From the NCBI GenBank assembly GCA_017506865.1, contig JAFCMP010000536.1, forward strand, positions 434,001 to 498,000: DNA of 64,000 bases, in the 5' to 3' direction. The translations under genes and the position numbers were made by a program. Numbering within the stretch: position 1 is the first letter of the stretch; the number at the start of each line of letters is the position of its first letter. This stretch comes from Tribonema minus. Its lineage: Eukaryota; Sar; Xanthophyceae; Tribonematales; Tribonemataceae. Positions 1,105 to 63,300 of this stretch are shown here, one piece after another. The notes below the pieces were generated by a model, which worked only from the letters and a program-made list of their open reading frames with translations, was not told the DNA's origin and did not search any database.

Positions 1105-1835
1105 TACGCCGTTTTTGAGCGGATGCTCAGGAAGAGACGGTCGACGCGCCGCTCGAGCATCACTTGAAGACTTGAGGAGCGCTAATGCATTATGCCTTTT
1201 TTGAGCGGATGCTCAGGACGAAACGGTCGACGAGGCGTTCTGCTGCCATGCGCGGCCCGAGCACGCCCTTGGCCAAATCGCCCTCCATCTTGCTCGCCAA
1301 GGCCTGTGATGAGGGTTGTACGAAAACATATTTGCATATTTGACCACACAAATACCGTGCATTTGAGGCGTATTTGGCAACCAGGAATACGTCGTGAGCA
1401 AACCTCAACGAAGGGCGTATTTGTGAGGCATGTGGCGAGTCTGCTTGATCGCCAAGGCCTGTGATCATCATGATTGAGGGATGCAGGGGGGGTGGTCACA
1501 ACATGAGACTCGTGGCCAATGACTGCAGCAGCGGCGACCACGGTCATTGGTGGAAGGCACTCGCGGCTCACCACACTTGTCACCTAGAGCTCTACGGTCT
1601 TTTGATTCGTTTCCATGAGAGTAGGTCCGGCCCCGCCGAGACGCACTACGATTTCATCTGTGACCGCTCCTGCACCACCTTCGAACGTTATCTTGTGACT
1701 GTTTTGCATCAGGCGCTGTTGTTTCGTCACGCCCTTTTGTATGCCAACAACTCAGTGAGGGATTCACATCGGTGCGCGCAAATCACTTGAGCTTCATCTT
1801 GCTCGCCGAGGCCTGTGGTCGCCATGAGTGACGGT
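1105..1835 (-). repeat. Partial copies of MMAA exon 8 edges
   Basis: The last coding bases of MMAA exon 8 (real copy ends at 1190) recur at about 1108-1158, just past the stop codon. The acceptor plus first bases of the exon (real junction at 1303/1304) recur in short form near 1449-1466 and 1796-1826. The copies are truncated and out of frame, so they are not exons. They flank the real exon on both sides. Confidence 0.7.
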
Positions 1836-4800
1836 AAAGGTTGGACGGATTCGGTTAGGGTTAGGGTTACTCCTCCCCTAACTCTTGGACGCAGGGAGCG
1901 GTTGAGATGTGAGAGTGGGTTTGTAACAACACACTGCACTTAGACTACACTGTGACTGCTCCTACACAATTATAGAGCTCTGGCCAGGGTTGCACCGTCA
2001 CCAGCGCTGTTGCGCTTGTGTTGCCCCCCTCCCCCCTAAAGCCATGGAACGAGTACGGATGCAGATCGAGTGCACGAGGAATCTTGAGTGTGACAGTGAG
2101 TCGGGCGCCAGGCTGCCTTTGGTGTATTGATCCGCTAGCGGCTGCTACTGCTCACCTTCTCAGGCTGCTGTGAGTGAGTAAATATAAGTGAGTCAATGAG
2201 TGAGTGAATGAGTCCGCCCCCCCTGTACATTGCCCCCCAGTGCATCGTCAGGTCAATCACGGCTCAACGCCTCCAAGCACAGCGCATCCGCACCCCACGG
2301 CCATTACACCTCCGCTCTGCCAGCTACATACCCTAAAGCTATATACCTACCAGCAGCGCCGTATCGCTTGCGACCATCAAAAGTGCCTTCGAGTTCAGAG
2401 TTGTCGGCAACTTCGGGAAAAATTGGGGCAAAAAAACAGGAACCAGCAAGGCGCACAGAAAGAGGGGGACGCGAGCATGTGGTAGCCGTTCGCATTCCGC
2501 TAGACCACACAAGGCCAAGCTCTTGTGGACACGGCAACACCAGCCAGGTAGCCAGCACTTTCGCCTGTGCGCTCAACTTTAAAATCAACCCGCACCAGGT
2601 GTTCCCCGTGGGGATGGTTTGATTACCCCCACAACGCACACACGCTCCCTCAAGCTTCTGCTTCTCTGCAGCACCTTGCTCTGTTGCATCCTGTCGACCA
2701 GTCTGAGCCCTTGCTAGTTCCCCATTCAGGGGGGCCGCCATGAACCTGAAGCGTGCCACCGCGTACCTGAACGCCGGAGTCCTCCAAGGCGCGCTCCGCC
2801 AGCTGCCGCTCGAGCTGCTTGAGCATCCAGTAGCGCCCCTGAAGGGTTAGGGTTAAGGTTAGGGTTAGGGCTAGCGTACCTGAACGCCGGGGTCCTCCAA
2901 GGCGCGCTCCGCGAGCTGCCGCTCGAGCTGCTTGAGCATCCAGTAGCGCCCCTGGATGCGGCGCCGGCGGTCGAATTCGCCGTGCTCGTGCAGCGCCGCG
3001 CAGAACTTCTCGACCTGCGGCAGCACACCCAGCGCGATTCACATGAAATTCATGAAGAATTTCATGAATTCATGAATGAAAGGCGCCTACACATGCCGTG
3101 CCCGTGCAGCGCCGTGCAGAACTTCTCGACCTGCGGCAGCGTACCCAGCGCAATTCACATGAAATTCATGCATTCATAAATGAAAGGCGCCGACACATGC
3201 CGTGCTCGCGCAGCGCCGCGCAGAACTTCTCGACCTGTGGCAGCACACCCAGCACAATTCATGAAATTCATGAGTTCATGAATGAAAGGCGCCGACACAT
3301 GCCGTGCTCGCGCAGCGCCGCACAGAACTTTTCGACCTGCGGCAGCACACCCAGCGCAATTCATGAATTAATGAACCCAAGGTGCCGACGCATGGCAGTT
3401 TGCTGAGCGCTGAGCACGGGGCACAGACGCTGCCATGGGGGTGCATGGAAGAGAAATGGCCACGAGCGAGTGGCGCACATGTGGGGTTTAAATTGCAGGG
3501 CCGTTTCTATTGGAACAGGCCTTGACCTGGTCAAGGGCAACACAACACAAGCGCAGTGGCTGTAGAAGCAATGTCCAGGGGCAGCAGCACGGCCTCAAAG
3601 GCAGGTACACAACAGTTGAACTTTGATTCAGGAACAGTTGAACTTTGATGAAAGACATGTGCCCGGGCTCACAGGGTAGGTTTAGGCTTAGATTTAGGCA
3701 TGACAGCTGAGCACAGCGCACGGCAGAGGGGATTGAACGGCTGGCAAAGCCGCATTGTTTGCGTGGCGCATGGCATTAACCATAACCCTAGCTCCAACCT
3801 CTGCAGACGAGCAAAGACACAGCAGACGATGTCGCAGCGGAACACTACACAGCGAAATGCACGTGAAGCAGGTGGTGGTCGCTCAGGCTTGAGACAACAG
3901 CGCAGGCGCAGCCACACAGTAGGGTTAGGGTTACCCTAACCCTAACCCTAACCCTAACCCTAGCCCTAAGCAGCTCAAATGCCGCAAAGGTTCATTTAGC
4001 AGCTGAATGCCACAGAGCATGAGCAGCTCAGCGGCACATGCGATGCAGGCTAACCCAGAATAGTTGCAAGCGCAAGCAGGTTCAGTGCGACGGAGACCTC
4101 ATACTGCAATGCAAAGTAACAGCGTAGAACGAACAAGATTGCAAGCCCTGTTGTTAGCCTGACGCGTACATTAGAGGGAACATGTATGCATGCATCATGA
4201 TGTATGTGTAGGTAGGTAGGTACTGACCTGTTCCCACATCTTGTCAATGCCAAGGCCCTTTCTTGCAGAGCAGAGCAGCACAGGGGGGTGCCAGAAAGGT
4301 AGCTGCAAAGCAAGGAGCGGAGGGGACAGGGCTCGTTGAGCAAGAAGAGGAAAAATGCAAAGCTACTTTTGAGCGAAACACTTCCGTGGGAGGAAGCACT
4401 CTGGTGCTGATACATACTTCAACTATGTGCAGACTACCCTCAGTGTTTGCAATAGTTGTAGCAAGACCTGTACACCAGGAACATGCGCTTCACACATACA
4501 CATGACGCACAGTTGCAGTTGCGCTGTAACTCTTTTGCAGGACTTAAAAAAGTTCGATGATTGAAGAGCGACTAAGGATAGCGAATGCGGAGTCCAACCT
4601 TTCAGAGGAATGGACATCTTGCGTGAAGTCAAAATGACAAACTTTACTGAGAAGCATCCGCCCCTGCACAGTTGAGGTTGTACTTCAATTATTGGGGTAT
4701 CATCCATGCGCATTCAATTCCAAACATGTGCGAGAAAACATACTTCGAAGTATGCTCAACCAAACGCAATCAATATTTTGACATGCGGTGGCTTGACTTT

Positions 4801-7800
4801 GGGTGCATGGACTGCGAAACTTGAGAGCTCAGACAAAGCAAGGTGCAGCAGCATGAAGTTCGAGCAATTAACTGAGCGCATACTTCAAACGTGCTTGCAG
4901 CCTGCCAGCACCTAACCCTAACCCTAACCCTAACCCTAACCCTAACCCTACCCTAAACAAATGATAGACTGGGCTTGGCTACAGCGAATGCCAGCCAAGA
5001 ATACACTTGACCCTGACAACACTTCACACAAATCTTGACAACACAAACAATAGTTTGAAATGCTGAAGGCATCGCACTCACGCACCTTTGGCCGATTGTA
5101 GTGCATGGCGTTAGAGTAGTCGCCAGCCGTCAAGCGAGCGGGGCTGCGCAACATCAAAGAAAGGAAAGCAGGCGGGTCAAAAACAAAAGCATGAAACATT
5201 TCATTGCACCTGTGAATGGCGGCGAATGTCGAGCAAATGAAATTTAACCCTAACCCTAACCCTAACCCGAAGGGAGTCACACCACGTTCCAGGTGGATGC
5301 AACGTGGAGACATTAGGTCATGAGATAATGCATGGGTACACTTGCTCGATCATGAGAATGGCTCTGAGACATCACCAGCAGAACAACAGAACAATGAATC
5401 CAGGCTTGATGCTATACTATATGCGCTTGCGAACAGCATCTTCAGGACACCTCCTCTGTTATACTGTCGTCCACGCGCAGCCGGCGAGCCTTGTGGTGCT
5501 TGTGCCCAACACAATTACGGTGACACAGCACACATTGAGAAGAGAGCTATGCAAGGGGCTTGCAAGCAATCCTGACCCGTATCCAGCAACTTGGGGTTAG
5601 GGCAGGCACACACTTGTAAACCTGCAACAAGCATTACTTCAATTGAAGTTGCATGATTCATTCAAGTTAAATTGAAAAGGCAACTTCAATGTTGATTGAA
5701 ATTGCACATTTGGCTGAAGTTCCACGTACCCCTCCAGCTCCCCGTCGGCCTTATTAACCACCACCAGATCCGCGGCTTCGATGATGCCCTTCTTGCTGCC
5801 CTGCAGATCGTCGCCGCTTGCCGGCGGCAGCAGCAGCGTCAATACGTCCACCTGCGCACAGAACACGCACGCACACACACACCACACACACACAATACAA
5901 AGAGAGTCAGTACACACAAACACAAACATACACACACACACACACACGCACACGCACACGCACACGCACACACACACACAGTGCGAGCAGCAGGCGCATT
6001 GTATTATGAATGGTTGAGCGCAACACACACGCATATGCATGCGCACGCGCACACACACAGAGAGAAAGAGAGAGCAGCAGGCACTTTGCAAAAACTTGAA
6101 CGGAAGGCCAGTGAGCTGTGCTGATGCTCAGCAAAGTGCTGTGCTGTGTCAGCGCTCAGTAGAACGAGACATTCGCCGTTGATTGCTGGCAGAATTGCCA
6201 GCGTCGAATGAAGAGTTCGGCTGCATGAGCAATGCGCGGTTGAACGAGCGCTGTAGACTGGATTTGAAAGCAGTGACAGCTAAGCCTGGTTGCAACCAAA
6301 CCCTAACCGTAACCCCATCGCCAGCGCTCACTGTCTGCTCCAACTCTACTCTGCGGCGCCATTTTCCCCACCATCACAACCCACACCCTAGCCCTGGTTG
6401 CGCACGCAACCCGAAGCCTAGTCGCAACCCTAACCCCAGGGCTCGCCGTCAGCTCCACCTCCACCTCGCTCTGCCCCGTATGCATGGTCATCACAATACA
6501 ACCCTAGTTGTGCACCCCGGACCCCATTACCAACCCTAGTAACAATCATAGCCCCGGTACTCACCGTCTGCTCTGCTTCCACCTTGCTCTGCCCCGTGTC
6601 AACGATCATCACACTGCAACCCTAACCCCATCAACAAGTCTCTTGCCGCAACCCTGCGCACACCATACATACTTCCTTGTGCACATGACGCACTGCACGG
6701 CGCGTGACCCTACCCGCAATCCCCTGCTGCTTACGCGAGAGTGCCATGTGCACACGGCGCCCTGCGCGCCCTCGTGTTGTGCAGATCCGCCAGCAATGCC
6801 GACCCTAGCACCAGCGCTCACCGTCTGCTCCACCTCCACCTCGCTCTGTCCCTTGTCCGCAACCCTAGTTGCGCAACCCTAACCCTCATCACCAACCCTA
6901 GTAACGCCAACCCTAGCCCCAGCCCCAGCGCTCACCGTCTGCTTCACCCCCACCTCGCTCTGCTCCCGTTTCCACGATCATCACACCACAACCCTAGTTA
7001 CGCAACCCTAACCCCGTTGCCAACCCTAGTAACCCTAACCCTAGCTGCTCACCGTCTGCTCCACCTCCACCTCGCTCTGCCCGAGCCCGACCGTCTCCAC
7101 GATGACCACATCGTATCTGGCCGCCTGGCACAGCAGCACGACGCTGTGCGTGTGCGCCGCGATGCCGCCGAGCACGCCGCCGCTGGGGCACGCGCGTACG
7201 AACGCGTTGGGCGTCCTGCTGAGCTCCTGCATGCGCGTCTTGTCCCCCAGGATGGACCCCCCGCTGCGCAGCGACGAGGGGTCGACGGAGATGACCGCCA
7301 CGCGCTTGCCGGCCTGCACGAGCCGGAGGCCGAGGGCCTGGCGCGTGCGCGCGCACGAGCGGCGGAGACGCATGTAGGTAGGTATTGTTTAGTATACTGC
7401 GGGTGAGCGGTGTCGTGTACGCACACGCGGCGGAGAGGCGTGTGAAGAATATGGTGTGCTGATGAGTGCTGTTAATGACCGCCACGCGCTTGCCGGCCTG
7501 CACGAGCCGCAGGCCGAGGGCCTGGCGCGTGCGGTGCGCGGGGGCGGCGGAGGTGTGCATGTATATGTTATGTATTGGTCTGATGGTGTCATGTATGCAC
7601 GCGCGGCGGCGGCGAGGGGTGTGAAGAGAGTGATCTGCTGATGAGTACTGTACTCCAATGTAAGCACACGCTTGCCGCCCTGCACGAGCCTGAGGCCGAG
7701 CGCCTGGCGCGTGCGGTGCGTGGGGGCGGCGCGTGTAGGTAGGTATGTATATTGGTCTGCCATTGAGCGGTGTCATGTGTCATATATGCACAACGGATAA

Positions 7801-9841
7801 GTGTGTAAGGAAAGTGGTGTGCTGATGGGTGCTGTAGAGTGCGCATGCGCTTGCCGGCCTGCACGAGCCGGAGGCCGAGCGCCTGGCGCGTGTGCGACGT
7901 GCGGGCGGCGGAGACGCGGGTAGTTGTGTATGTATTGTGCAGTATACTGCGGGTGAGCGGTGTCGTGTATGCACACGCGGTGGAAAAGCGTGTGAAGGGT
8001 GCGGATGAGTACTGTACTGTAATGTACGCGTGCGCTTGCCGCCCTGCACGAGCCTGAGCTCCAGCGCCTGGCGCGTGCGCAGCGGCAGAAAAGCATGTTA
8101 CGTTTTGATCTACTGGCAAAAACCGCCTTGAGCGCCCGGCGCGTACGCAGCGGCAAAGAAGCATGATTCGTTCTGACATACTGGCAGGAGGCGTCATGCA
8201 TAAGCACTCTCAGCAGTGCTCTCTGCCACGCGGCGAGAAAGACGCAAGTGCAGCCGTGAATGCGGAGTCAAGTTGCGGTCAGCGCGCGTCCACATGACCA
8301 ATTTCAAGACGCTGCATGTGGTGTAGCATGCGCGTGAAAGTGTTTTCAAGACACGCAGCAGGCCCCACCATGAGTGCATAGGGTCCCTACTGCGTTTTTA
8401 TCTGCGCTAAAAGTTGAGTAACTATGGTCCAGCGGCGATACGCTACTCTTGACACCTGGTCAAGAACACTTTACGTGCATGTCAGCGCTTGAAGTTGACG
8501 TATTACCCGTGCCGCATGAAGTGCACCTGGTCAAGAAAACTTCACGTTTATCTAAACGCTTGAAGACTTTGAGTGCCGCAGGACATGCAGTGCACGCTTC
8601 TGTTGAGAGTTTCAAGCATATGTGCAACAATCAAGCGCGTCGCCAAGATGCTCTTATGTGTGGCTCAAGAGATCACACAGACGCAAGATTTGCCAATCGA
8701 AATGTTTCTTATTGAGAAATACATGTATGTTGGAGGAAAGGTACATGATCATAGACTGACGCTTTGCAACATGGACCTTCATCCAAAGCAACCCGGTGCC
8801 TCTACCTCAAATCCAGCTGGCTGTTCCAATGTAGTGGTGCTCACCTCAATGAATGTGGACTTGCCAGCCCCCGGCGGCCCCGCTATGCCCACCCTCACGC
8901 AGTCAACCGCTGCCTCCGCTCGCCGCCGGGCCAAAACCTGTATTGATGTTGAAGTTGAAGTTGATCCCACGCATGACAGATGGCGCTGTCAAGCAGCGCG
9001 AGCTCAAGCGGAATCTGCCCAATGGTGGCGATGATACAGCGCGTAACGTCACCATGACTTATGGCAAGTACTGATGATGGTGCCATTCTTGTGCACTATT
9101 TGTCCAGTATCACGCGCAAATGCCCGTTTTCGAGTACAGATGCAGTGGGTCGCGAAGTCGCGCTGTACGCAAGACTCTGCAGCGCAAGCTTTATGGTGTA
9201 GGTGATGCATTGCATGCACGTATTTCAAAGGAGCATTTGTCACCAAGGCGGCGGTCGTGCACTACAGCAGTAGCACTGCCTGCAAGGCACATGGTACACT
9301 CACACAGCTGCTCCTGCTGCAGCAGTAGCAGTACGTTGATCCCAGTAGCTCTATAGATTTGCCGGATCCTCAGCATCTGCTTGAGAAATCAACAGCTACA
9401 TTGCTCGGATGAAGTGCTGTGCACGGCTGCCCGGTATTGCCGCCTTCTCATGATTAAACAGTAGCACAGTTGTTGATCTTCATTAGCGACTGGAGAGCTC
9501 TATTACAATTCTGGACCAAATCAAGTATAAGCTACCAGCGATGACATATGTATCCTTAGCACTCAACTCACCTTGTCAAGCAACATGTCCGCCTGGTGGT
9601 GATCCTCATGTAGCTGAGATTCCACCAGAGTGATAGCACGCGCCAGCTGCAGCCTGTCCCCATCTAGCACTCCTTTGACCAGCTTTTCCGTCACAGCATG
9701 CAGAGGCTCTGCTGCTGCCTCAGTCACCGTAGACGCCACACGCCGCGAGGTGTGGAATGTAGGTCGCAGGATCACATTGCTGTGACCCAACAAAAGCTTG
9801 GATCCCGCCACACGCGCAGTTCGCATGCAGCACGCATGCAT
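1190..9841 (-). CDS. MMAA: Methylmalonyl-CoA mutase-associated GTPase (MMAA/MeaB/ArgK family), 8 exons
   Basis: G3E-type P-loop GTPase that loads and protects adenosylcobalamin on methylmalonyl-CoA mutase in the mitochondrial propionate pathway. Exons in coding order: 9841-9572, 8937-8845, 7337-7053, 5851-5730, 5143-5086, 4302-4228, 3014-2880, 1303-1190 (stop TAA). Phases agree at all seven junctions and give 383 aa, between bacterial MeaB and animal MMAA in length. Residues 1-38 are basic and Ser/Thr-rich like a mitochondrial presequence. Seen motifs: RAITLVES helix near residues 66-73, P-loop GPPGAGKST at about 110-118, SVDPSS and the [12 protein letters not shown] switch region in exon 3, NKAD at about 250, LLCSAR (G5) in exon 6. 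The C-terminal helical part ([10 protein letters not shown] and [10 protein letters not shown]) matches the family dimerisation arm. Donors and acceptors are GT-AG. Introns are swollen by copies of exon edges. The start at 9841 is the first in-frame ATG; 9826 is an alternative. Family assignment is secure. Confidence 0.93.
2757..2842 (-). repeat. Truncated second copy of MMAA exon 7 with donor site
   Basis: This stretch repeats the 3' half of MMAA exon 7 (real exon 2880-3014), including the donor GTACGC, with only a few substitutions. It lies downstream of the real exon and is separated from it by a telomere-type tract at 2846-2872. It lacks an acceptor, so splicing from exon 7 to exon 8 should ignore it. 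Confidence 0.8.
3096..3352 (-). repeat. Three tandem copies of MMAA exon 7 acceptor edge
   Basis: Copies at about 3096-3147, 3199-3250 and 3301-3352 each contain the acceptor CCGCAG and the first 30-35 bases of exon 7, followed by AT-rich ATGAATTCATGAA-type sequence. The period is about 102 bases. All lie upstream of the real exon in gene sense. Each could act as a decoy 3' splice site. Confidence 0.85.
3918..3966. repeat. Head-to-head telomere-type repeat tract
   Basis: Two TTAGGG units run directly into about five CCCTAA units on the same strand, so the two arrays face each other with no spacer. It lies in MMAA intron 6. Head-to-head arrays are the usual scar of end-to-end telomere joining or of an inverted insertion at a break. 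Confidence 0.85.
4912..4955. repeat. Telomere-type (CCCTAA)n tract
   Basis: About six perfect CCCTAA units inside MMAA intron 5. In gene sense the tract reads TTAGGG. Confidence 0.9.
5244..5270. repeat. Telomere-type (CCCTAA)n tract
   Basis: Four CCCTAA units in MMAA intron 4, about 100 bases upstream of exon 5 in gene sense, reading TTAGGG in that sense. Confidence 0.9.
5869..5990. repeat. CA/CACACG microsatellite
   Basis: Interrupted (CA)n with CACACG variants, directly upstream of MMAA exon 4 in gene sense. A shorter related patch lies at about 6019-6060. Pure slippage-type repeat; the apparent His/Thr reading frames over it are not genes. Confidence 0.9.
6318..6985 (-). repeat. Five decayed copies of MMAA exon 3 donor edge
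   Basis: The last bases of exon 3 plus its donor (real junction 7053/7052) recur near 6328-6350, 6441-6485, 6566-6600, 6818-6852 and 6928-6970. Each copy is joined to CCCTAA-like bases. Spacing is irregular (about 110-250). Decay increases with distance from the real exon. Confidence 0.82.
7338..8150 (-). repeat. Tandem array of MMAA exon 3 acceptor edge, ~180-bp period
   Basis: Copies of the acceptor CGCGCCAG plus the first 35-45 bases of exon 3 occur near 7483-7530, 7669-7716, 7846-7893 and 8033-8080, with a shorter piece at 8123-8147. The real junction is at 7337. Between copies, the intron unit (GGTAGGTA, GCGGGTGAGCGG and similar) is also repeated, so the duplicated unit is intron end plus exon start. 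Several copies keep the reading frame of the exon for 12-17 codons. Confidence 0.9.
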
Positions 9842-15914: not shown

Positions 15915-16689
15915 CACCGCCAAGGGAGCACGAGGGTACTACATGTTGGCTGCACACACGAGCCTGAGCGCTTAGTGCAGGTGCCCCCCCCCGCTGCCAT
16001 CACGCGCGCTGCCCCTGTGCGCGCGCTGCTGCCAGTGCATGCATCACCACGGCGCCGCCAGTGCTCAGCGCACAGCGTAGGTGCCGCCCGCATCCGAGTT
16101 GCCTGCCGCGTGCACCGCCGCTGTCGCCGCCGCTTGCGCGCGCTTGTGATGCCATTACTTGCTGCCATCAGCGCTGACCGTGCACCTCATTGACAAACGC
16201 TGCCGCCGCTGCCGCGAGCGCCGCTGCCAGTGCCTGCTCTGCTGCCAGCAAGTGTGCGCCGCTGCTGCTCATGCTGAGCGTGCAGCGCAGGCGCTGCTAG
16301 AACATCAGGATGCCGCCGCGCCGCCGCCGCCGCCGCTGCCGCTGCCGCCGCTGGCAGTGCTCAGAGCGCAGCCGGCTCTCAAGTGCCATCGCCATTGACT
16401 CAGAGGGTACTACCAGTACGTGCCGCCGGCCCGCCGCATGAGCGCATGTATGGACCGAGGCGCCGCCGCTGCTTGCAGTGCCGCTGCTGCCGCTATGCAA
16501 TTGCTGAAGCAACTTGATGTGATGTGCCGCCGCTGCCGCAGACTCTCGCGTGCGCACCCAGAGGCTCGCCAGCAGAGTCAGTTTGGCAGGTGCGTCCGCG
16601 GCCACATCCGTCGTCAACACACGGAGCTCCTAGTCCACTGGAAGCAGCTGCACATGCCCACTTCGGTGACTGCCGACCACGGTGTCACT

Positions 16690-17301
16690 TGGTAGTCGGT
16701 CCCTGCAGGCAAAGGAGTGGGGTAGCATGCTTGTCACTGCCGGCACCATACCATAATCTCACAGATCACATACAGATACCTGATGGACAGCAAGCAAAGC
16801 AAACTTCAGAACCAAAATTTGTCCCCCATGATGGTGCTGCCAGGTGGTTGGCATACAGCAGTGTAGGTTGAAGCTGCTGGTCCTATTATTCACCCCCCAA
16901 CAGACATGCCCTGGAGTAGTGGGTCTTCAATCAAGACAACACAAAACAACAACTGCTTTAGGAGCTGAACAACTTCACCTGCAATGCGATAACTTCAATT
17001 ACGGTAGCACAACTGGGGGGGGGTCAGATTTTGTTACTCATGGTGCCATTAGTGGCAGCTAGAGGGTTGGCGTACAGTACATGTGTATGTTGACGCTGGG
17101 TGATCAGGTCATAATCCCCCGCCCACAGCCAGATCACTGGGACTCTTGCAGACTGTAATCAAGACGACTGCGTTAGAATTTGGGGGAGACCGTAAATCAC
17201 ATGAAGAACTTCAACTTCAGATTACTCGGCTGGATGGCGCAATTGGCAGCGCGCACGATTCCAAATCGTGCGGTTGTGGGTTCGAGTCCCTCTCCACGGT
17301 C
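16690..17301 (+). repeat. Segmental duplication, copy 1 (ends in broken tRNA-Trp)
   Basis: This segment is repeated at 19216-19834, about 2.53 kb downstream. Long shared words include CATACAGATACCTGATGGAC, ACATGCCCTGGAGTAGTGGG and GTACATGTGTATGTTGACGC. Small indels separate the copies. The module is a spacer followed by a tRNA gene. Confidence 0.9.
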
Positions 17302-18759: not shown

Positions 18760-18797
<38 letters not shown>

Positions 18798-19834: not shown

Positions 19835-19837
19835 CAG

Positions 19838-20634: not shown

Positions 20635-20668
20635 GGGGATCGTCTCGCGCTGTGGGACCGTCTCGCGC

Positions 20669-43806: not shown

Positions 43807-43839
43807 ATGCTGCTGTGCCCTGAAGCAGCAGCAATAGTA

Positions 43840-46075: not shown

Positions 46076-49000
46076 CTAGTTGGCCAGCTGCTCAAAGCTG
46101 CGCGCCATGTCTTCACGCTCGCACTCCACCATCATTTCCGCCATGGATTGGCGCGTGTTGGGGAAGGGGAGAATCTCCGCATCTAAGGGGGAAGGAAAGG
46201 GGCAGGGGGGGGGGGGGGCAAACGTGGGGGGAAGGGGGGAGCAGTGAGCTTGTGTGGCGTGATGAAAGCTGCTATTATAGTAGTGCTACTGTGACAAGGT
46301 GGGGCTGTGTCCTTGCTGGACCAAGTCAGCATCAGACATCAACTTCATTGTCGTCACCTCACCAAAGTCGTATATTGATGTAAAACAAAAGTGTACACCG
46401 GTCACACACGTGATGAATTGCAAGAAAGCAACAGCACTGCGAAGGGCAGCCACTCTCGGTTGCAGGTGACCGGCCTCTAGAGGTTGCAGACTTGACCTGC
46501 CGCATCACACTTGAACCGACAACGATGCACGTGATGATATCATGCGATGGACACAGCACTGCAAAGGGCATCGCTGACCTGCTCTGATCGCCTCAGATGC
46601 GCCCACCAGAGTCGTGGTGCGCAAAGTGCCGCCAACGCGCAGTCCTTGCAAGAAGCTAGGTGACCCTGACACTACCCGCGATCGCTAAAACCCAGATTTG
46701 ATGCACGCATGCGGTGCCAGCGCGAATTCTTTAGTTCCTGTCGCTTGCGGTTGCTGCAACTGGCTACATGAAGTTCGGCAATGATTGATGTGAAGTTCAG
46801 CAGTTCAGCGCACCCACAGTCTGTCACATACAAATGCCACGAGCAGCTGTGACGTTGAGTTGTTGGTGCCAGCAAGCACATGCACATAGCTGTAACTTGC
46901 AGCTGCCACTGGCAGTTGACGCTGGCGCGAACCTCGCTGTTGACATTACTTCAACATCGAGCTTCAACTGGTGACTCACCCTCCACCTCCATCTGCACGC
47001 CGATGAAGTACGCCAGTCTGCCATTTGCGTCTCGCAGCGGGCTGATGTTGAACTGGTTGATGAACGTCGTGCCATCCTGTAGGGTTAGGGTTAGGGTTCA
47101 TCACAAAAAGAAGCAGAGACGCCCACATCAGCTGATTATGCTCTCTGGTGTGCGAGATATAGAAAGAGGCTTTCAGCGGAATAAGGCGATGCGATGCAGC
47201 TGACCTCAAACAGTTCCACGGCGCCACTGTGTTGGCGTTGAGTGCTGGCCGCAAATGCTGCCGCGAAACCAGGCGTCGTTAATGAGCAGAGCAACACGGT
47301 GATGATGGCAGCCACGGAAACCCTAACCCTAGCCCTAGCCCTGACGCTCAGTAAAGCAAGCGGGCCTGCGAACCAAGCATCAGATGATATGACAGGATGC
47401 GAGGCACAGTGCAGTTCACAGAGATACGTACGCACCAGCACATGCACTCCCAGACCTTATTGTGCTTCGCCTTAGGGTCAGGTTTAGCTAGGGTTAACCC
47501 CAAATCCCCGAACGTGTACACGTCTGCGCCTTAAGACCCGCTCGCGTACAGCTGTGTGAGGTGACCTGTCTGTGGGCCCGCAAGAGCACTTTTATTGACT
47601 TTGACTAAACACGGCTGGTAGCTCAATCTGCGGTGTGCTGACTCAGGCCAATGGTGAACAGGCACTTCCAGACCTGTTGAGTGTGCTTTGCCTTAGGGTC
47701 AAGGTGGGGTCAGCGTTGACGCAAAGTCCTGCGCATACCGTACGGCTGTCTGAGATAACAGCTGTGTGAGCTTTCAGAGCACTGTTCTTAACCCCGACTA
47801 GGTACGGCTGGTAACTCAATCTACGGTGTGCTGACTCAGGCCGATGGAGAAGATGGCGCCAGCGGATTGGGGTTGGGGTTAGGCGGCAGCAGCCGCAACT
47901 TTGGAAACACTCACTTGTGTAACTTACGATTCGTCCCTCTACCCTAACCCTACGACTCATCATCAGATGCAATCATGTTGCCATACTGTGCGACATCCTA
48001 ACGCGGTACCTGCGTTATCGAGGTGGTTATCTAAAACCAGGACTATCCAACGAGGTATCTATGTAAACAGCAAGAGCTGCAAGGTCAGCGCAAAAGACCA
48101 GAGACCTGCACGTGACCCCCTGTCTTGACCGGCCAGCGCACTGCATGCCTGCACAGGTACGTGTGCATTCCCTGCAGCAAGACATACACTTATAAGTACA
48201 CATATAGGAGAACGCTACGGATAGCTCGTGCTAATCAACATGGAGCCACCGTGTCGCCGCACGGATTGGTTCAAAACCCGTTCATCACCTTCTGCACTAC
48301 ACGCATTCAAGAGCGCTGTCGCAAGCTGCTGAACCTCTGTGTTGGGCTGCCGGCTGGAGCTGGCCTACCGAACACGTGAGACCTGTCCATACTGAACACC
48401 CATGCCTCGAACGCTAAAAAGCTTGCACACAAAAGTCTTTCTTTGACTGGTGATTATGGTGGCACTGTTTGACTCGTGGCCAATGACTGCAGCAGCGGCG
48501 ACCACGGTTATTGGTGGAAGGCACTTGCGGCTAACCACCCCTTGTCACCTAGAGCTCAACGATCTTTTTAATTCGTTTTTCATATTCCCTGCAGGAAGAC
48601 ATACATAAACTTGAAGTTTTAGATGTTTAAGGTACACGTGAGTGCACGGCATGCCTGCACAGGTACGTGTGCATTCCCTGCAGGAAGACATACATTTATA
48701 ATATAGTATATCAAGTACAAGTACACATGAGCGCCATGAGAGGGCACTGACCTTGCGGTAGTTGAGCAGGCACACGCGCGCGTGCTTGCGCTCGTTGATG
48801 GCATTGCGGATCACTGCCACGTCCTCGGGCGACGTGTCGTGACCCTGCAGGAAGCGGCAGTTGATGCCGTTGATCTCATAGCGGCTGCAGGCAGACAGGG
48901 CAGGGGCGCAACGTCAAGCATCAGAAATTGAGTCTAGAAATGCTAGTATCGAGGAGGAAGCAGCAGTTGATGCCGTTGATCTCATACCGGCTGCGCACAA

Positions 49001-52000
49001 AAGATCACACGGGTGCAACATCAAGTACTTGAAGTATCAGAAATCAATTGATCTCGTACTGGCTGCACGCAGATGTGGCATGCGTGCAACGTCACGCATC
49101 AGGAACGTAGATCTCGTGCCGTCTGTAAACAAACATCACACGGGTGCACGTTCAAGTACTTCAAGCATCAGAAATCAAGTCCAGGTCATAATTGTCAAAC
49201 TCTATCAAAATTGGAGTCCTATGCATGCGTGGTGAGTTGAAGCAACAAAACTAACTGTGATGGGTACGGGTGGATTCACGCTTACACATACACATGCGCA
49301 CATAGACACGGTGAACAGCTGATGGTATTGACATGCAGCCATGTACACGCACCACGTCTGTGATCTGCAATGAAAATTTTTGAATTCAAAGAGAGCCATC
49401 ACTTGCCGGCCTCGCTGCAAGTCACTTGCGAATCACAAATTGACGACTCGCTTGTAGCCTGTCATGTCCATAAACGCATCACTGACCAACATACATACGC
49501 TAAAAGCTTGCACACAAAAGTCATTTTGACTGGTGGATACGGTGGTATTGTTTGACTCGTGGCCAATTGCTGCTGCAGCGGCGACCACGGTTACTGGTGG
49601 AAGGCATTTGCGGCTAATTATCCCTTGTCACCTAGAGCTCTACGATCTTTTGATTCGTTTTCATACATACATGACAATCGCTCACTTGTAGCCTGTCATC
49701 TCTATGAATCCGGCGCTGACACAGAGCATGGTGCGGTCATGCATGGCAGGGTGTGTGATGCAGGCCATCTGCATTGGGTACAATTCTTGCTTCAGAGCAT
49801 ACAATGCACGAGACAGTCACGCACTGGTAGCCTCCATTGCTACAAAACCCATTGCTGACAACCACAATGGGGCTGGCGTGCGGGGCAGGGTCCATCACGC
49901 ATAACACTCACATGCGGTATAGATGTACGCAATATACATATGCTAACCCTCTACATAGAACACGCCATAATCACTCACTTGTAGCCCGTCATCTCAATGA
50001 AGCCGTCGCTGACAAAGACAATGGGGTTGTCGTGCATGACGGGGTCCGTGATGCAGAACATCTCGCAGCGCTCCTGGAGCATGTCCACCAGCATCTTGTC
50101 CGTGTCGCACAGCACCTTGTACGGCGTGAACAGCATCCAGTCCTGTGACCCCGTGCCCATCTGCGACGCAAGTAACACGTGCAACCGTTTGGTGACTGCG
50201 CAGCGGAAAAGCAACAAACCAGTGTTGCGGTTTCGGCACAACGACAGACACGCAGGGGCACTCTGGCTTGCAATGACGACAGTCGTGCCGATGTGTCGCA
50301 CAGCACCTCGTGCGGCGTGAACAGCATCCAGTCCTGTGACCCCATGCCCATCTGCGGCAGAACACGCAAGCGGTCGTTCAGCGCAGGTGCTATGAATGAA
50401 CAGGTAACTGTGAAAAAAATTTGCCCTAGCTCTAGATCCTTGCCCTAAGCCTGACCCTGACTCTGACCCTAACTTCAACCCCTACTTCAACCCCACCTTC
50501 TTGCAGTTGTTGGCATTGCGCAGGCGGTACGCGAGGCTGCGCGAGGGCTCCCTGCGGCACGACTGCGCGTGCCCTAACCCTAACCCTAACCCTACTTCCA
50601 GTAACCTTAACCCTAACCCTGGTCACTTCAAAGCCCACCTTCTTGCAGTTGTTGGCGTTGCGCAGGCGGTACCCGAGGCTGCGCGAGGGCTCCTCTTCTC
50701 AGCCCTAAACGTGTCCTGACTCTAACCCTAATCCTAATCTCCCTAACCCTAACCCTAATCTCAACCCCTACAACTTCAAGCCTACCTTCTTGCAGTTGTT
50801 GGCGTTGCGCAGGCGGTACGCGAGGCTGCGCGAGGGCTCCTCGCGGCACGACTGCGCGTCCGGCGAGCGCTGCGGCGCGCACAGCATGAAGCGCGGCGCG
50901 CTCGGGCCGGAGGTGATGACGCGCATGGGCGTGATGAACCACTGCACGCAGATCTCCGACTGGCGGCACAGCGGGGGCGGCGGCAAAGGGAATCAATCAA
51001 TCACATGGTGAGCGCAGACACAGCATCAAGTGTAAATGTCAACAGGTGCGTCGGTGTTGCCATGTTATTGCTGATCGCTGCCGCATGAAAAACCACTGCA
51101 CGCAGATCTCCGATTGAAGGCAGCGGCAACAGCGGCGGCAGGGACGGCAATGTGTTGAGCGACGTGACAGGCGTGAGAGGAGTGTTGATTTGATCTGAGT
51201 GGCTACTGGGCGCTGCTGAGTGATGAACCACTGCACGCAGATCTCCGGCTGAGGGCAGCAGCAACGGCAGCGGCAAGGGCGACAATCACAATTGCGAGCG
51301 CATGCGCAACTTCAAGCGTGGCCACGCACGGGTGCGTTGTCATTGTTGAGCGATTCCTGGAGCGCTGTTGCGTGTTGCGGTCGCAGAGCGCAGATGCAGT
51401 AGTTGTGTGTGCTCAAGCGCTGCTGCAGGGGAAATGACGCAGACCCAGCTTCAAGATGTACACTTCTATATATATACACATGAGGCACAGCACTGAGCAC
51501 TGATGGCTGCCTGCAGCACGGCCCCACGCACCACGCCGTCCGCATTGCACGTTAATGCAGTGGCAACTAAGCAGTAGAATTTTATGAACAGCCTCAGCAA
51601 TATATGGGCTGCGTGCGTGAGAGTCGCTGGTGCATGTGCAGGCTCGCCGCTTCATCCCGGCCGAGCGCATTGCCCATCGCGACCAGTACAAAGTCCTGTC
51701 GCCCTGCTGCACCGTCGTACTTCACTATTACTGGCACGACCTCTAGTACTGTGCGTGCACGCCCACCAAGGTGCACATACTGCAGGCACGACAGGGGTCA
51801 CTCGCGCTCAGAGCACACCAATTCAGAGCGATTCCGTAGCTGTTGAGGTACAACTTCAGATACAGCGCATACTACCCAGAAAGCGTAAACATACCACACT
51901 CACCGCCTCATCCTGGCCCACGGGCTTGCCGATCACGGGTACGAGGGAGTCCTCTGTGCTCTGGAATGCGGCCGTAATGGCATCCTCGTCAGCGCTTGAC

Positions 52001-53816: not shown

Positions 53817-55413
53817 CGCCCTCGCCTGGAGCTTGCTAAAGCTGTTTCCGCGCTTTACAGCAGCTGCACGCCAGCTCCAAGGGGGGACGTAGTCTCCGTA
53901 ACAAGAAGCGCTCCGCCAGCAGCAAGGTCTAGAGTCTGCTGTGCCCGCTGCGGTGCTGCAACCAAGATACAAAACCTGGTGCAAACGTTAATGTGCTTAT
54001 TTAGACCCAATCTGCTTTGGTTTTTTTTTTTTTTTTTTTTACTCTCATCAGGAATCGGTGGGGGGTCCTCCCCCCCCACCCCCCCACCGGCGCGCACACA
54101 CCACACACGCATGCCCGTGGCCTCAGTACAGGTTGCTACTGTCGTATAGTGTCCCACGAGATCGTCTGCTTCATGCCACCGGCTCGCGCGGTGTACGGCG
54201 GCTGAAAATGCATTTTTGGTGTGGCTGAATGCTTTCTGCAAGATGCAATTGCTCGCGCGTTGCCACACACGCACATATGATTGGCGCACACCATGTCAAA
54301 TGTATCCTATTATAGCCAGTCAACATCACCAGCTGCAACGTGCATGCTCTCGCTGTGTGTTGCAGCTGCTGTACGCTTGTTGTTGAGGGCGCCTGTTGCG
54401 ACAACCTCAAGAAAGCACGACGAAACGATGTCGACACAGCGCGCGTTGCACTCGCAATGAGACGAATTGATGCTATGTATCGTGGACTGTCGGCTGCTAT
54501 CCACGGCGCGCTGGCAAGCACCGTGGCGCAAGCAATAACAGGATTCGGCCTCAGAAAAAAGCGCAGAACTTCAAACGCTGGCTGCTTTTGCTGCTTGCTC
54601 GCGCCATGAAGCTGCCGGTGAGCGTCGGCAGGCTGGGCTACTTACTATACGTTGCTCCGGTGCCTTACGCGGCCTCACTAAGTGTCACTCAGCTGGTATG
54701 CTGCCCTGCGGAGCTCGATTTTTCTATGCGCCAGGTTGTGGCCCTCCTACCAATTCTTGTTGTTGTGTCGCACCTTGTGAAACGCGAGGAAACACGAGGC
54801 ACAAAAATTGGAATTGGTGGGAAAGCCCTACCTTCCCCCCCCTACTTATTGACACCACTGATTCCAGAGAATTTACATTATAATGTCATGTCTTGTTCCT
54901 GATTCATAAGGTTTCGCGCACCGCAATCCTTTGCCATTAGCACTCGTGGCTCGCAGCGCGCCCTGGGTCGCTCGCTATAGTTCTTAAGTCTCTTATTGAG
55001 CCTCATGGAAAGCGATGAGACACATCCACCTCTCACTTCATCAATTGCTGGCGCCATGCGGTGGCATCATGCACTCCGAGCGGTCACCACCTCAGCACAA
55101 CACACAAGGCACCACTACAAGCTTGAAGAACTCACGGCCTCGAAACTTCATGGACACGCAGAACATCCAACGACACCGCGGGGGGGCTAGGTGTCGCTGA
55201 GCATTCCTTCACACCCCGGCGCCATGCGCGCTGGCTTTGCTGACAAGAAATCTGGTGCGCTGCGGCAGTGCCACAGACAGCAAGCCCCCCCCCTTACATA
55301 CATACCCTATCCCCATATCCCTCCCCCTCCCCGCCCACCCCGCGCAGCATGTGTGCCTCGACAAGGCTGTGCCGCACCCCTGCCTTCTGATACATACATA
55401 CCCTACTCCCCCC
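53817..55413. other. Spacer between LOV gene and thioredoxin gene
   Basis: Holds the LOV promoter and leader, a 22-base poly-T at 54019-54040 followed by a C-rich run, and an open plus-strand frame at 54340-54609 with an amphipathic basic part (RRNDVDTARVALAMRRIDAM). I cannot assign the frame to a family and do not call it a gene. Confidence 0.4.
55285..55400 (-). repeat. Partial copy of the thioredoxin gene last-exon end
   Basis: About 90 bases resembling the 3' end of the exon at 55617-55414, up to the purine-rich GGGGGAGG and the GGGTATGTATGTA word, recur just downstream of the stop codon. Decay is moderate. It shows that the edge of a terminal exon can be copied as well. Confidence 0.75.
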
Positions 55414-57371: not shown

Positions 57372-60300
57372 ATGCCACCTCCTCTGTGCGCGCTGCCAGG
57401 GAGTCGCTCTAACCTGGACTCAATCTCGGGCACTTGTGGCAGGGACCTGCATGAGGCCGCAAACAACATCCATGCGTCACTCAGGGGCGTGCACAAGGAT
57501 CTGCGCCCAAGCTTGAGGGTCACAGATACTGTCACCATTCGCAGGGATGCTGATGGTGAGTAGACCTCCTGCTTTTGCAGCTAGTTTGTGTGCATGGCGC
57601 TCAGCGGCACACGTTTTGCCTGCTACAGCTGCCACGCGTGCCCAGCTTGGTAAACAGAACGTGAAGAGTAGGCGGGAGGCTCGTCGTCAACTGTACTCAT
57701 TAACGCCAATTGGCGCCTTGATTTAAGCGCCAGCGCTTCACATGCATGCTGCAATAATGCAGCAGCGTGTACTGGCAGTGGCTTCCAGCCTCTTGTCTGT
57801 GTAAGGCTGTTGGCGTGAGGGGAGGCAATATCCACAAGCAAGGAGTCAACATCTGCTACTTGATATACTGCACTGTTCCAAGGTCTCACCGATAGGCTCT
57901 ATCGAATCGGCGTTGCAAAGAATGTGTTAGCTATTTTTCTTATGAGTAGGCTTCGATTTACGACTAATTTTGTACATGCACACGGAGGCCGCGAGTCGAG
58001 AGTCATGTGTACCAGCCCACCGTCAGTCGAGCTGAGGTGATGGGAAGTATAGATCGTGGTTCTCATACGGGAGTGCATTACACACACGCTCAACACACAC
58101 AAACCCCTGCATCACACAAACTTGTGTGCATTTTTACACCCCGCTTCAGATCATGATCCGTAACCTTCAAGGCAGTACTGTCACGGTGACGTGCCGCTGC
58201 CTGCAGGCGCGCTGCAGCGCGTGAACTCTTACGAGGTGCTCAAGGACATTGGGCATGGCACCACGGCGGAGGTCAAGCTGTGCCGGAGGCGGGGGTGCCA
58301 GAGGGGGGAGGGGGGCGAGGAGGAGCCCCTTTACGTGAGTTGCATGAGTATGTAGTAGATCACGAGCACGAGCCCACCCTGCAACTGCAGGCTTGTAGTC
58401 GTGCAGGGCTTTCGTAGGGCGACATTTCAGTGTGTTTAAGACCTTGTATTTGTGAAGCAGCCCCCGGGTGGGCTTGCAGGTGCAGGCTGCTAGTGCAGGG
58501 CTCTCAGAAGGCGACGACTCCATCACCTTTGACGGTCGCTACGTAAGGCTACACTGGCTGTTACGCATAAAGGCGGAGCTCAGTAAGCACGGTCAGATTG
58601 TGAGCTTGCAATCACAGCGGAGACAAGTGCGACAGATTCCTGAGCATCGGGAAGTTCCGTTTGTAGCATCAGTATCGGGCTGCTGCTATAGCTGTTGCGG
58701 CAGCGCTCGGCACCCAGAAGTGTCAGTGCTCAACATGCGGCGCCACGGACGTGGAGCGGTGAGGTGAACCTGCAGTCATAGTGGAGGCGAGCGCCCTCAG
58801 TGCTCAACAGTGGCAGTTTTCAGTTTGGCGCACACGTATTATGACACGTATAGTGCTGATGGTCAGCATGCAGCAGCGCTCAGACTGGTGTAAACACCTC
58901 AATCAGCTGGAGATGGTGCCGCTGTCATGTACTCATGAGTTCAAAACTGTCATGTGCTGTACCTACTTTACGCTGAAGCCTGCCGGCCCAGTTGGATGTC
59001 GGCATCGAGTGCAGCAGCTAACCCCAAACCCAGCCGTACGCGTGCTGATCGTCTTGTGAGAATTGAAACTTTTTCCTTAGTGATAATGTTTACAGTTGCA
59101 AACTGCCTGAGAGATAAGCAGATTGCGCGCTGACATGCATAGGCAATACAGCTGATGTTTGGCATGCCAGTGCACAACATGTACACCAAGTCCGTAGCTT
59201 CTCTACATCTGTACCTACATGAAGAGCCACAACTTCAGAGCAGCAAGTGCTTGAGAGATAAAGCCACTGGGTATTCCTACAGCTACAACTTGCGTGCAAG
59301 GGACCGTGACTGCTGCCAGCGCCAGCCTGAGACATGAGTACTTGCGCACCAACGCCCGAACGCAAACCCAAACCCTAACTCTAGGCGTTCCAGCTGTTGG
59401 AGCGGCGGTGAACCGGGGCGCTCCATCCTTAGCCTTGCAGGGCAGTGCTCAGCAAGCGTTACAGCTCGTGAATTCAAACATCATAATAAGCGCATTGTGG
59501 AACACACTCATGAGGTATGGAGCGCATTCAAAGCCTGGCGTGAATAATGGCGGTAGGGGCTCAAGAGGCAGAGCGGTTGCGTAAGCTGTGCGACTGGCAG
59601 CTGCTGTCGCGTTTATTCACATTACAATAAACACATTGTGAAACGCATTCATGAACTATGGAGCGCATTCAAGAAGCAGCGCGACCTGTGGCCAGCAGGG
59701 GCTCAAGAGGCAGGGTCGTTGCTTGTCAATGCCTGCAGGTGATCAAGCTGTTTGACTGGCAGCTGCTGTCGCGGCGGTGCGACTTTGCGAGCGCGCGACA
59801 CTCCATCCTTGCGGCAGTGCTCAGCAATCGTCATTGAATGGTTGTTCGCATCATAAATCATAAACGCCGCCCGCAGGCGATCAAGCTGTTCGACCGGCAG
59901 CTGCTGTCGCGCCGGCGCGACTTGGCGAGCGGGCGGCGCTCCATCGCGGCGGGCATGGTGGTGCTCAGCAACCATTAACTCACATCATAACTCATGTACG
60001 TTGTTTATTCACATCATGATTGATGAATGTTGCGTGCCAACACCTGCAGGCGATCAAGCTGTTTGACCGGCAGCTGCTGTCGCGGCGGCGCGACTTTGCG
60101 AGCGGGCGGCGCTCCATCGCGGCGGGCATGGTGGTGCTCAGCAAGTGCAGCAACGCCATGGACAACGTGCAGCGCGAGATTGCCATCCTCAAGCAGGTCT
60201 CCCACCCCAACGTCACAAAGGCGAGTACATATCAGCTGCCGCTGGCACGGGCGCGGTGTGCTTGGCGGCGCTCTGCGCTGCGCTGTAGCTAGGGTTAGGG

Positions 60301-63300
60301 TTAGGGTTAAGGTTAGGTGAGGACCACCGCACATCCGACGCGATGTCACATGCTATCTCATGCTACATATCTTTTGGAGTCTCACGTTTCAAGGAGGTGC
60401 GGTGGGTTGGGGCTAGAGCCAAGTAGGGTGAGGGTTCGTCAGGTGACGCCGTGCAGCGAAAGATTGCCATCCTCAAGCAGGTCTCCCACCCAAACATCAC
60501 AAAGGCGAGTACATTCAGCTGCCATTGGCTCGAGCTTGTCCCGGGCGGGCCCCTCTCCTTCCCCCTTTTAGCCCCTGTAGGGGTATGTAGAGGGGGGTGG
60601 CAGGGGACAAGGCTCGAGCACGGTGTGCTGGGCGGCGCTCTGCGCTGCGCGACGTGCTTCGCTGCGCGTCCGTCGCAATGGGCAATGTGCGCGTTGCAAC
60701 CGAGGTCAAGTATTGTCGCATGCGCAATGACAATGTATGCATGCGATCAAGACCAAGATGATCATTTCATCAAGACCACAGCACTGTTTCAAGGGTGAGG
60801 CTTCATCCCAGCTCTGCAAGAGTGCATGTGGCTTGAATGCGTGACAGTGCTCACCCTGCAAACTTTGTGTTGTGACCCCAGGAGATGTGAGTTTCATTCA
60901 TGTCTTCAGCAGTAGTGCGACAGCAATTGGTGACCGTCCCTCGCCCCTCACTGAGGCGCGCATGGTCAAGTGAGATTTTTAGGTGGGGGGGTGGGTTGGG
61001 GGTAGAGCTAAGTAGGGTTAGGGTTAGTCAGGTGAGCTGGCGCGCCCCGTCTGTGGCGCTCCTGTCCGACACTACTCGTGTTCCTACGGCATGAATGGCT
61101 TTGTGGCACGACTGCAGACCGTTCCTTGACCCTCAGAACTTTTCACGGCAGCACTGGGTGGCACGTGTGCAGACCGTTCCTCGATCCTCAGACCATTCCT
61201 CAGCCCCCACACCATCCCTCAGAGCATTCCTCAATCCTCAGACTGTTCCTTCCCTCTACGCACCGCGCCTGCGCAGCTGCTGGAAGTTATCGACGACCCA
61301 GCGGCCGCGCAGCTCTTTGTCATCATGGAGTTCGTTGCTGGGGGCCCCGTAATGGAGTTCAACATGCTGGTAGGTAGGTATGCGGCGCCCCAAACGGGGG
61401 GCCCCCTGGGGGCGGCGACGGCGGGCATGGTGTTCGCGGACGTGATCTCGGGGCTGGCGTACCTGCACAGCAACTGCATCGCGCACAGGGACATCAAGCC
61501 GGAGGTGCGCTGCGCGGTGTGTGCTTGACATACATATTGATGTGTAGGCTGGTGTTGGAGCATATGGCAGTTACATGGCGTACCTGCACAGCAACTGCAT
61601 CGCACACAGGGACATCAAGCCGGAGGTGCGCTGCGCGATGTACTTGATTACATTCCACTTTGCGCGATTTCACGCTGCGCAGTGCTTCGCTTATATATGC
61701 TTCGAGCGCATGGCCACCACTCATGTCCATGTATATAACTGTTTTGGTTGGTGTCGGGGTGTATGGCGTTCACGTGCTCGTAGCTGTTTGCACGCTGAAC
61801 GGCTACGGCAGTACTGACTTGTAAGCGTAGTTGAGCGTTGGAGCATATGGCAGTTACATGCTCATGGCCGTTACGGCAGATACACTTGCTGGTGGGCAGA
61901 CCGCATAACAATCACTTCTAGCAGCACCGTGTGACATGACTGGCGTCCGTCTTCTGTTGTATTGGTCTTCTTGACTCTACATTTGGCCTTGCATTGCAAC
62001 CGGCCTCATAGTGAGCAAAGCTCTCTAGCTTTCATCACTTGACAGTGCAGAGAGGAAATCTGGACTGTGCTGAGAGATCACATGGCGCGACTGTGCGGCA
62101 GTTGCACCTGCTCTAGCGTTATGCTTATGTGAAGTGCACTGCGCACGAGGACAGCAAATTGCATGTGCACTTTCTGATGCGCTGAAAAGGAATGGACTCA
62201 AGGAGAATGTTGGTAGAAAAGTTGGGATATTACGTGCTAGCGCGACCTGGTATCGATAGGGTCAAAATTGGGGTTGGTATGCGTGCGTGCGCACAGCGTT
62301 TCGTCGCAAGCCGCACAGCGTTCGAATGACACCTACGCACCAAGTTGATGATGTGAGTGGATCCATGCACGGCTTCCATGTGGTGCGGAGACTGATGTTT
62401 ACGGTTGGCATTAGAACTAGCTTAGCGGTAGGGTTAGTGTTAAGGTTGGGGTTAGGGTTGGGGTTAGCCTGGAGTCGCAATGTCGCATCATATGCAAACT
62501 GATCTGTAGAGGAATGCCATTGGCTTTCATACAACCTTTCTGCACCTTGTGCCGTCAAAGTATAGGCAATGTGAATTCGCTGGCAGCGGCCACAATTCGT
62601 AAGGCATGCAGCTGGCTCCACATATGCCACGTGTGAGATCGTGCACTCCCACTGCTTGGGATTAGGGTTGAAATTAGAGTGAGGGTTAGTTAGGGTTACG
62701 ATTAGGGTTAGACAATACGTGTGGGATGCAAATGGCACATCAAATACCACGTGTGAGGTCGTGCCTGGGAGGACTGCCAAGACGTCACGCCGCATATACA
62801 CCGCTCTGTTCAGAATTGCCTGTGGCTCATGGCTAGGGGTCTGCTTTCTGGTTATGACACACCCTCAGAATTCAGTTAATGACAACCCCTCAGAATTTGC
62901 GATATGACGACCTCTTTTGACAACTTTTATGTATCTCGTGTGCATGCAGAATGTGCTGGTCGCCGGCGATGGTCGCGCCAAGCTAGGTGACTTCGGCGCC
63001 GCGTACCGCTTCAAGAGCGACACAGACAGGTGCACACACATTGATGCAATGACTACAAGTATCTCATTGTCGTGGGGTGATGCGAGGTCTTTTTGGTTAC
63101 CCTAGCTTTCACCTTGGCCTAATCCTCACCGCTTCCTTCGTGAGCTGCAGGTGCAGTATGCTGCCCCCCTTGTGCTGCAGAGACGTGTTGACCGACCAAG
63201 TGCACACGCCCTATGTATATGCTCATGGTTGTGATTGTCAGCAAGCATTGCTCCAGGCGGTGGAAAGCCACGCAATGCGTCCACCCTCTGCTGAATTGCA

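Follow-up and report, generated by a model that had tools for sequence, protein, structure and literature searches.

In sampled genes of Tribonema minus, introns carry direct copies of the edges of adjoining exons

Background

Introners and introner-like elements are multi-copy families which add intron sequence in many genes. What we describe here in Tribonema minus resembles them in that intron sequence is added in many genes, but each of the three filler sequences tested between copies was found only at its own place in the genome (in a search which skips very common words), so that insertion of mobile elements or introners was rejected as the origin of the fillers. The AGGT model (see PMC4974935) shares with our observations a local duplication across an exon-intron boundary, the copy of which inherits the splice signals; there, however, the duplication makes a new intron, while in T. 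minus copies accumulate within introns already present, and this happens repeatedly, in many of the genes sampled.

A possible enzymatic route is offered by the abstract of PMC8355091, according to which CST-guided Pol alpha-primase fill-in at breaks with 3' overhangs makes small tandem duplications. The likeness lies in short direct duplications obtained by fill-in and joining of ends, but that abstract states no preference for splice junctions, and few T. minus copies lack a filler. Repeats in direct orientation have also been described near splice sites, in a comparison of the 5' and 3' borders of introns (4-30 bp, mean 11.4), and read as traces of insertion (PMC11782384); the T. minus copies differ in being longer, in being copies of a single exon edge and in lying inside its intron. 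An earlier reading of the locus, made from the letters alone (hereafter the sequence-only reading), knew of no described system with this behaviour, and our literature search, covering titles and the beginnings of abstracts, likewise turned up no description of recurrent exon-edge copies in introns. The lengthening of introns without mobile elements is poorly understood, and junction-targeted duplication would let introns grow by a mutational route for which no description is known.

Sample and methods

The sample is small and drawn from one species: it amounts to 332 kb, or 0.2% of the 158-Mb genome of T. minus (554 contigs). That the genome belongs to this yellow-green alga follows from one of its genes, which matches a T. 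minus protein at 100% over 1007 residues, a second T. minus protein matching at 87%. The sample is made of the window (the whole 64-kb stretch of DNA analysed here), of two 100-kb stretches taken at round coordinates on large contigs, of nine kinesin genes found via PF00225, and of one further locus (L029). Exons were supplied by a self-trained gene finder and are mostly predictions, except in the kinesin genes and in MMAA; the gene finder recovered 34 of 37 kinesin exon matches and missed the kinase gene of the window. Out of 238 predicted exons, 157 were kept after dropping those shorter than 60 bp or with a content score below 10, then 154 after removing three flagged copies. Genes scoring below 40 contribute no exons; L036 and the thioredoxin-like gene therefore stand outside the sample counts, as does the unpredicted kinase gene. 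Low-complexity repeats and pairs below 38 bits were dropped. The exons of the window were matched to those of the sequence-only reading, which gave no exon coordinates, via gene and order, and many window copies were read by eye, base by base.

A first test of local copies compared 25-bp exon edges with mid-exon windows and with intronic 25-bp windows. A stricter alignment test used as controls the opposite side of the exon, the reverse complement, the intron of another gene and mid-exon sequence. Null simulations duplicated uniformly over genes, discarded events changing the mRNA, and included slower change of exons, indels, deletions and filler.

Results

Copies in the window

Compared with itself, the window gives 102 repeat pairs within 3 kb, and several tandem arrays sit at exon edges (Table 1). 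The sequence-only reading had listed edge copies at exons of MMAA, mS26, LOV, thioredoxin and kinase genes, acceptor copies lying upstream and donor copies downstream, and ranging from almost identical to hardly recognisable. A direct copy is indeed present at all 13 exons (three in MMAA, four in the mS26-like gene, three in LOV, one in the thioredoxin-like gene and two in the kinase gene), every listed copy lies outward of its exon, and local duplication graded in age is supported. The same reading held the secreted gene to be free of edge copies, and the self-comparison lists no near pair at 20,636-24,656. Kinase and PAS domains are backed by Pfam, the name LOV being that of the sequence-only reading; the names thioredoxin and mS26 are putative, the exons submitted having given no significant Pfam match. 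In two of the cases (the last MMAA exon and the exon of the thioredoxin-like gene), the copy seems to lie beyond the end of the CDS instead of at a splice junction.

In MMAA the copies can be set against a protein. The T. minus protein annotated "ArgK protein, partial" (P0003) contains the sequence of each exon once, and relatives from Ectocarpus and Chrysoparadoxa match each exon once, the copies showing up as extra partial matches outward of the exons. In the array upstream of exon 7053-7337, such protein-level matches stand at 7471-7524, 7656-7706, 7835-7885 and 8020-8070. Beside this heavily affected gene, we noticed an exon of a diacylglycerol acyltransferase (DAGAT) at 11242-11541 on the minus strand; between 9 and 15 kb of the window there is a single near pair (11726-11842).

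Table 1. Exons and copies of exon edges in the window
Feature	Position in window	Strand	Remark
MMAA (annotated ArgK-like GTPase) exon	7053..7337	-	acceptor copied upstream, donor downstream; P0003 matches 7340-7050 at 99%
Acceptor-edge copies upstream of MMAA exon 7053-7337	7475..8080	-	~180-bp array
Donor-edge copies downstream of MMAA exon 7053-7337	6299..6851	-	6299-6476, 6312-6594, 6802-6851
MMAA exon	2880..3014	-	both edges copied outward
Acceptor-edge copies upstream of MMAA exon 2880-3014	3095..3375	-	three copies, 102-bp period
Donor-edge copy of MMAA exon 2880-3014	2761..2841	-	97.5% identical; behind telomere-like filler 2843-2874
MMAA CDS-end copy past stop codon	1079..1240	-	pair 1079-1154 / 1165-1240, 80%; edge without splice site
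Donor-edge copies of mS26-like (putative name) exon 35365-35523	35636..35844	+	
Donor-edge copy of mS26-like exon 36482-36637	36801..36870	+	
Acceptor-edge copies of mS26-like exon 38137-38364	37721..38056	+	
Donor-edge copies of mS26-like exon 40268-40457	40579..41439	+	array
Donor-edge copies of LOV/PAS gene exon 50786-50959	50443..50695	-	two copies
Acceptor-edge copies of LOV exon 50786-50959	51083..51319	-	51083-51144, 51220-51319
Acceptor-edge copy of LOV exon 49979-50160	50293..50356	-	95%
Donor-edge copy of LOV exon 49979-50160	49676..49770	-	
Acceptor-edge copies of LOV exon 48752-48884	48955..49105	-	48955-48994, 49048-49105
Copy beyond thioredoxin-like exon 55414-55617	55295..55376	-	putative name, no Pfam match
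Acceptor-edge copy upstream of protein kinase exon taken as 60047-60223	59718..59827	+	
Donor-edge copy of protein kinase exon taken as 60047-60223	60450..60535	+	
Donor-edge copy of protein kinase exon taken as 61280-61504	61576..61641	+	97%

Excess of copies at exon edges

Over the 332-kb sample, a local copy was found for 56 of 138 acceptor edges and 49 of 141 donor edges, compared with 6 of 125 mid-exon windows and 261 of 1321 intronic 25-bp windows. The 33 kinesin exons checked by homology behave in the same way (acceptor 15/30, donor 10/33, mid-exon 1/24). In the stricter test, 81 of 279 edges matched their own intron, against 1 on the opposite side, 2 in the own intron once reverse-complemented, 0 in the intron of another gene and 2 of 99 for mid-exon sequence; at a higher threshold these figures become 73, 1, 0, 0 and 1/99 (own intron, opposite side, reversed, other gene, mid-exon). 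The comparison of exon edges with mid-exon sequence, to which the sequence-only reading had looked on the scale of the genome, gives in this sample an excess at the edges. Resampling genes places the difference between edge and mid-exon rates at 0.27 (95% CI 0.18-0.36; 22 genes), and genes vary widely, for instance with copies at 0/7, 13/26 or 12/19 edges.

Local duplicates are densest at the exon edge, with a coverage of 0.43 (acceptor) and 0.35 (donor) over the last 20 bp, against 0.18-0.24 more than 400 bp into the intron; for pairs at least 88% identical the coverage is 0.19/0.16 at acceptor/donor edges against about 0.03 deep in the intron. Families which contain an edge make up 26,192 of the 35,928 bp (73%) of intronic local duplicates, while the intron outside these families is covered to 8% (9,736/119,896 bp). 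Once exons are masked, the intron near a junction is hardly more duplicated than the deep intron (0.23/0.15 versus 0.21/0.18). Altogether, local duplicates occupy 24% of introns and 15% of the sequence outside predicted gene spans, the latter including undetected genes. Among predicted CDS ends, a copy was seen at 1/13 stop edges and 0/16 start edges, at least three of these ends being doubtful (the "first" exons of L035 and L037 start inside the kinesin domain, and the "last" exon of L032 touches the end of the fetched stretch); the two CDS-end cases of the window, in MMAA and in the thioredoxin-like gene, lie outside the 13 stop edges counted. The edge-copy pattern is real and strong, and it is linked to splice junctions in this sample.

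Orientation, polarity and intron length

In the two 100-kb stretches, repeats within 1.5 kb cover 16-19% of the sequence and are direct rather than inverted in a ratio of 252:1; near pairs over the whole sample, taken at a looser threshold, are 583 direct and 14 inverted. Direct pairs with an acceptor edge have their other member upstream of the exon in 91 cases, downstream in 5 and inside it in 1, while those with a donor edge have it downstream in 88 cases and upstream in 3; three edge pairs are inverted. The outward placement for which the sequence-only reading had formulated a rule is therefore seen across the sample, but a special rule is not needed, because a copy placed inward would change the mRNA, so that geometry and selection would largely suffice.

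Introns with edge copies have a median length of 1015 bp and those without 506 bp (Spearman 0.46 between intron length and edge copies, 91 introns). This is consistent with the earlier suggestion that the duplications lengthen introns, and the extra room offered by longer introns could give the same relation. None of the 133 copies with a usable neighbour (out of 156) lies within 20 bp of the neighbouring, far exon, so that intron gain by tandem duplication finds no support.

Duplication focused on junctions or survival of copies near exons

The explanation which we favour, and which we hold with middling confidence, is that short direct duplications, arising again and again and concentrated at splice junctions, make T. 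minus introns grow, selection leaving only the outward copies. Each event would copy a block, usually made of 20-80 bp of exon edge and of a variable length of adjoining intron, and the second copy would settle in the neighbouring intron, usually at a distance of more than 100 bp, the two copies being often separated by unrelated sequence. Events altering the mRNA would be purged, so that the surviving copies would be those outward of the exon; these, having no apparent product, would decay neutrally while the exon stays fixed, and arrays of mixed ages would result. The events might consist of break repair, by fill-in of staggered breaks or by a similar duplication route, if transcribed splice junctions are somehow prone to break or to re-prime. 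More tentatively, and with less conviction, we envisage that the junctions themselves are the targets of the duplicating process, through co-transcriptional breaks or RNA-templated synthesis, spliced genes then steadily making intron from the borders of their exons.

The same pattern might be due to survivorship only, if local duplication were uniform, purifying selection acted on its products and exon-intron pairs decayed more slowly than intron-intron pairs. We consider this unlikely, even though the polarity and the mid-exon deficit follow directly from it, the copies look neutral in their frameshifts and splice dinucleotides (see below) and the exon-masked intron profile is nearly flat. 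When duplication was simulated as uniform, edges came out less covered than the deep intron. Five null settings, including introns evolving twice as fast and nearly frozen exons, gave edge-hit rates of 5-16%, mid-exon rates of 5-14% and edge-family shares of 19-34%, whereas the observed values are 38%, 5% and 73%. The concentration of recent pairs on the edges also speaks against survivorship. Two junction-biased settings overshoot all three observed values (edge-hit 51-54%, mid-exon 31-33%, family share 86-89%), and all simulations rest on the unit, filler, deletion and rate settings which we chose. The rarity of copies at predicted CDS ends, several of them doubtful, speaks for a focus on junctions; the exon-masked profile, the two CDS-end cases of the window and the few replacement changes in the youngest pairs (see below) weigh against it. 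Duplication uniform over noncoding DNA would show no preference for junctions; the preference which we found in its place depends on these simulation settings. The continuing local duplication at splice junctions proposed in the sequence-only reading is thus supported, with an excess at junctions beyond simulated uniform duplication and purifying selection, and it is more likely that the junction preference reflects mutational input rather than survival, a conclusion resting on simulations and mostly predicted exons of one species.

Structure of the copied blocks

The matched block contains at least 80 bp of exon in 6 of 184 cases and less than 20 bp in 3, and, in exons of any length, copies rarely take in more than the outermost 80 bp. 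The members of exonic pairs are spaced by less than 100 bp in 6 of 221 cases, versus 34 of 256 for pairs outside edge families. Copies placed head to tail without filler, with a gap of at most 5 bp, account for 3-5% of pairs at 85% identity or more (exonic pairs 3%) and for 15% of exonic pairs at any identity; some arrays are nonetheless head to tail.

The identity of edge copies drops sharply at the junction, from 0.84-0.89 close to the edge to 0.59-0.72 at more than 10 nt into the intron, unrelated background being at 0.53. In the 99 exon-copy pairs whose intron part is recognisable, exon and intron parts are identical at 0.88 and 0.76 respectively; in the 38 copy-copy pairs of this kind, at 0.82 and 0.74. 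Neutral simulations give smaller gaps between the two parts. The array L030:3115-4065 (minus strand) displays the same contrast: two copies are 97-100% like the exon edge and the third 82%, and one copy has an identity of 1.00 over 30 bp of exon but of 0.67 over 30 bp of homologous intron, which neutral decay does not explain. Such a sharp fall, together with two copies out of three nearly intact in their exon part, one of them with a diverged homologous intron part, would be expected if gene conversion kept the exon parts of old arrays alike, the exon held by selection converting its copies while the intron parts become too different to be converted. As a general account we find this improbable, since the exon-derived part is less alike between copies (0.80) than between exon and copy (0.88), and differences between copies at codon positions 1 and 2 nearly add up as in independent decay. 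The faster divergence of the intron part is the main point which the model of junction-focused duplication leaves unexplained, and exon-anchored gene conversion is one candidate for it.

The ends of young blocks lie close to the splice sites. Among the 25 pairs which are at least 92% identical and have a single exonic copy, 15 have a block going no further than 8 nt into the intron, versus 17% expected if the junction were positioned uniformly; the highest of 2000 simulated sets gave 48%, and neutral simulations gave 11/71, 4/48 and 13/63. Four of these 15 blocks hold no intron, two of them being entirely exonic, at 47 and 79 nt from the exon edge. Blocks copied from pre-mRNA during break repair in transcribed genes would account for such ends, found with 0-12 nt of intron in 18 of the 25 young blocks, as well as for the near absence of inverted pairs. 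Tandem duplication gives direct copies too, however, and free RNA templates should allow copies on the other side of the exon, which occur at 1/279 edges, so that we regard this RNA-templated repair as very improbable and keep to junction-focused duplication.

Fate of the copies

Among 75 indels found in copies, 70 shift the frame. Copies differ from one another at codon positions 1 and 2 (0.126, 0.114) about 1.7 times as much as exons differ from their copies (0.076, 0.067); this is close to twofold and therefore fits a decay of each copy on its own, and the excess at position 3 would fit copies being snapshots of an exon still changing silently. Splice dinucleotides are kept in 65/79 and 55/77 copies, compared with 246/316 and 234/308 control exonic dinucleotides. 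The youngest pairs show 16 replacement and 30 silent changes. Replacements are too few here for a neutral copy, for which we would expect a ratio of about 1.43 if the exon changes freely at silent sites (half of the computed 2.86, the halving being an assumption of ours). Overall, coding constraint on the copies is unsupported, the youngest class staying below expectation.

Hardly any credit can be given to the view that the copies are functional as alternative exons, decoy splice sites or regulators: the deficit in the youngest pairs and the prediction by the gene finder of a 72-nt exon, which would keep the frame, at the MMAA copy 2767-2838 are outweighed by frameshifts in nearly all copy indels, by splice dinucleotides lost about as often as their neighbours and by an annotated MMAA protein containing none of the copies. 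Frameshifts and that protein likewise rule against tandem or alternative exons keeping the frame. The copies probably do nothing and decay near-neutrally.

Telomere-like tracts and base composition

Telomeric repeats had been suggested as a driver by MMAA and LOV, in which single telomere-like cases lie at copies (2843-2874 in MMAA, and in LOV introns), yet copy boundaries are not enriched in them: 59 of 2068 boundaries lie within 15 bp of a telomere 11-mer, versus 44 of 1855 random points. In their own right, internal tracts resembling telomeres (TTAGGG) are frequent, with 120 matches of one pattern genome-wide, and predicted introns hold them at 2.4 times the density found elsewhere (0.60 vs 0.25 per kb). 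Their C-strand, with CTAAC and pyrimidines, might serve as branch-point and acceptor signals.

A GC-rich hot zone was also rejected, as the coverage of introns outside edge families remains at 5-12% over GC bins from 0.35 to 0.75, with no clear trend. Outside predicted gene spans, coverage rises from about 5-9% at a GC of 0.35-0.45 to 25% at 0.60-0.65, undetected genes being present there. The stretch L014:2001-10000 (G000:C1:1052001-1060000) consists of 46-72% local duplicates by 2-kb bins and holds no exon of the set used; it is perhaps an undetected intron-rich gene.

Implications and other repeats of the window

Recognisable local duplicates make up about a quarter of the introns examined, and most of this sequence belongs to families with an exon edge. 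T. minus could serve to follow intron growth as it happens, and the link which it suggests between splicing, transcription and DNA breakage can be tested. For gene prediction there is also a warning, since exon-like pieces inside introns may be debris.

Two further repeats of the window deserve mention. A 650-bp direct duplication (87%) occupies 16643-17303 and 19182-19835, and each of its copies ends with a tRNA-Trp (cca), at 17228-17304 and 19762-19835. At 19962-20635 lies a 335-bp tandem pair with 99% identity.
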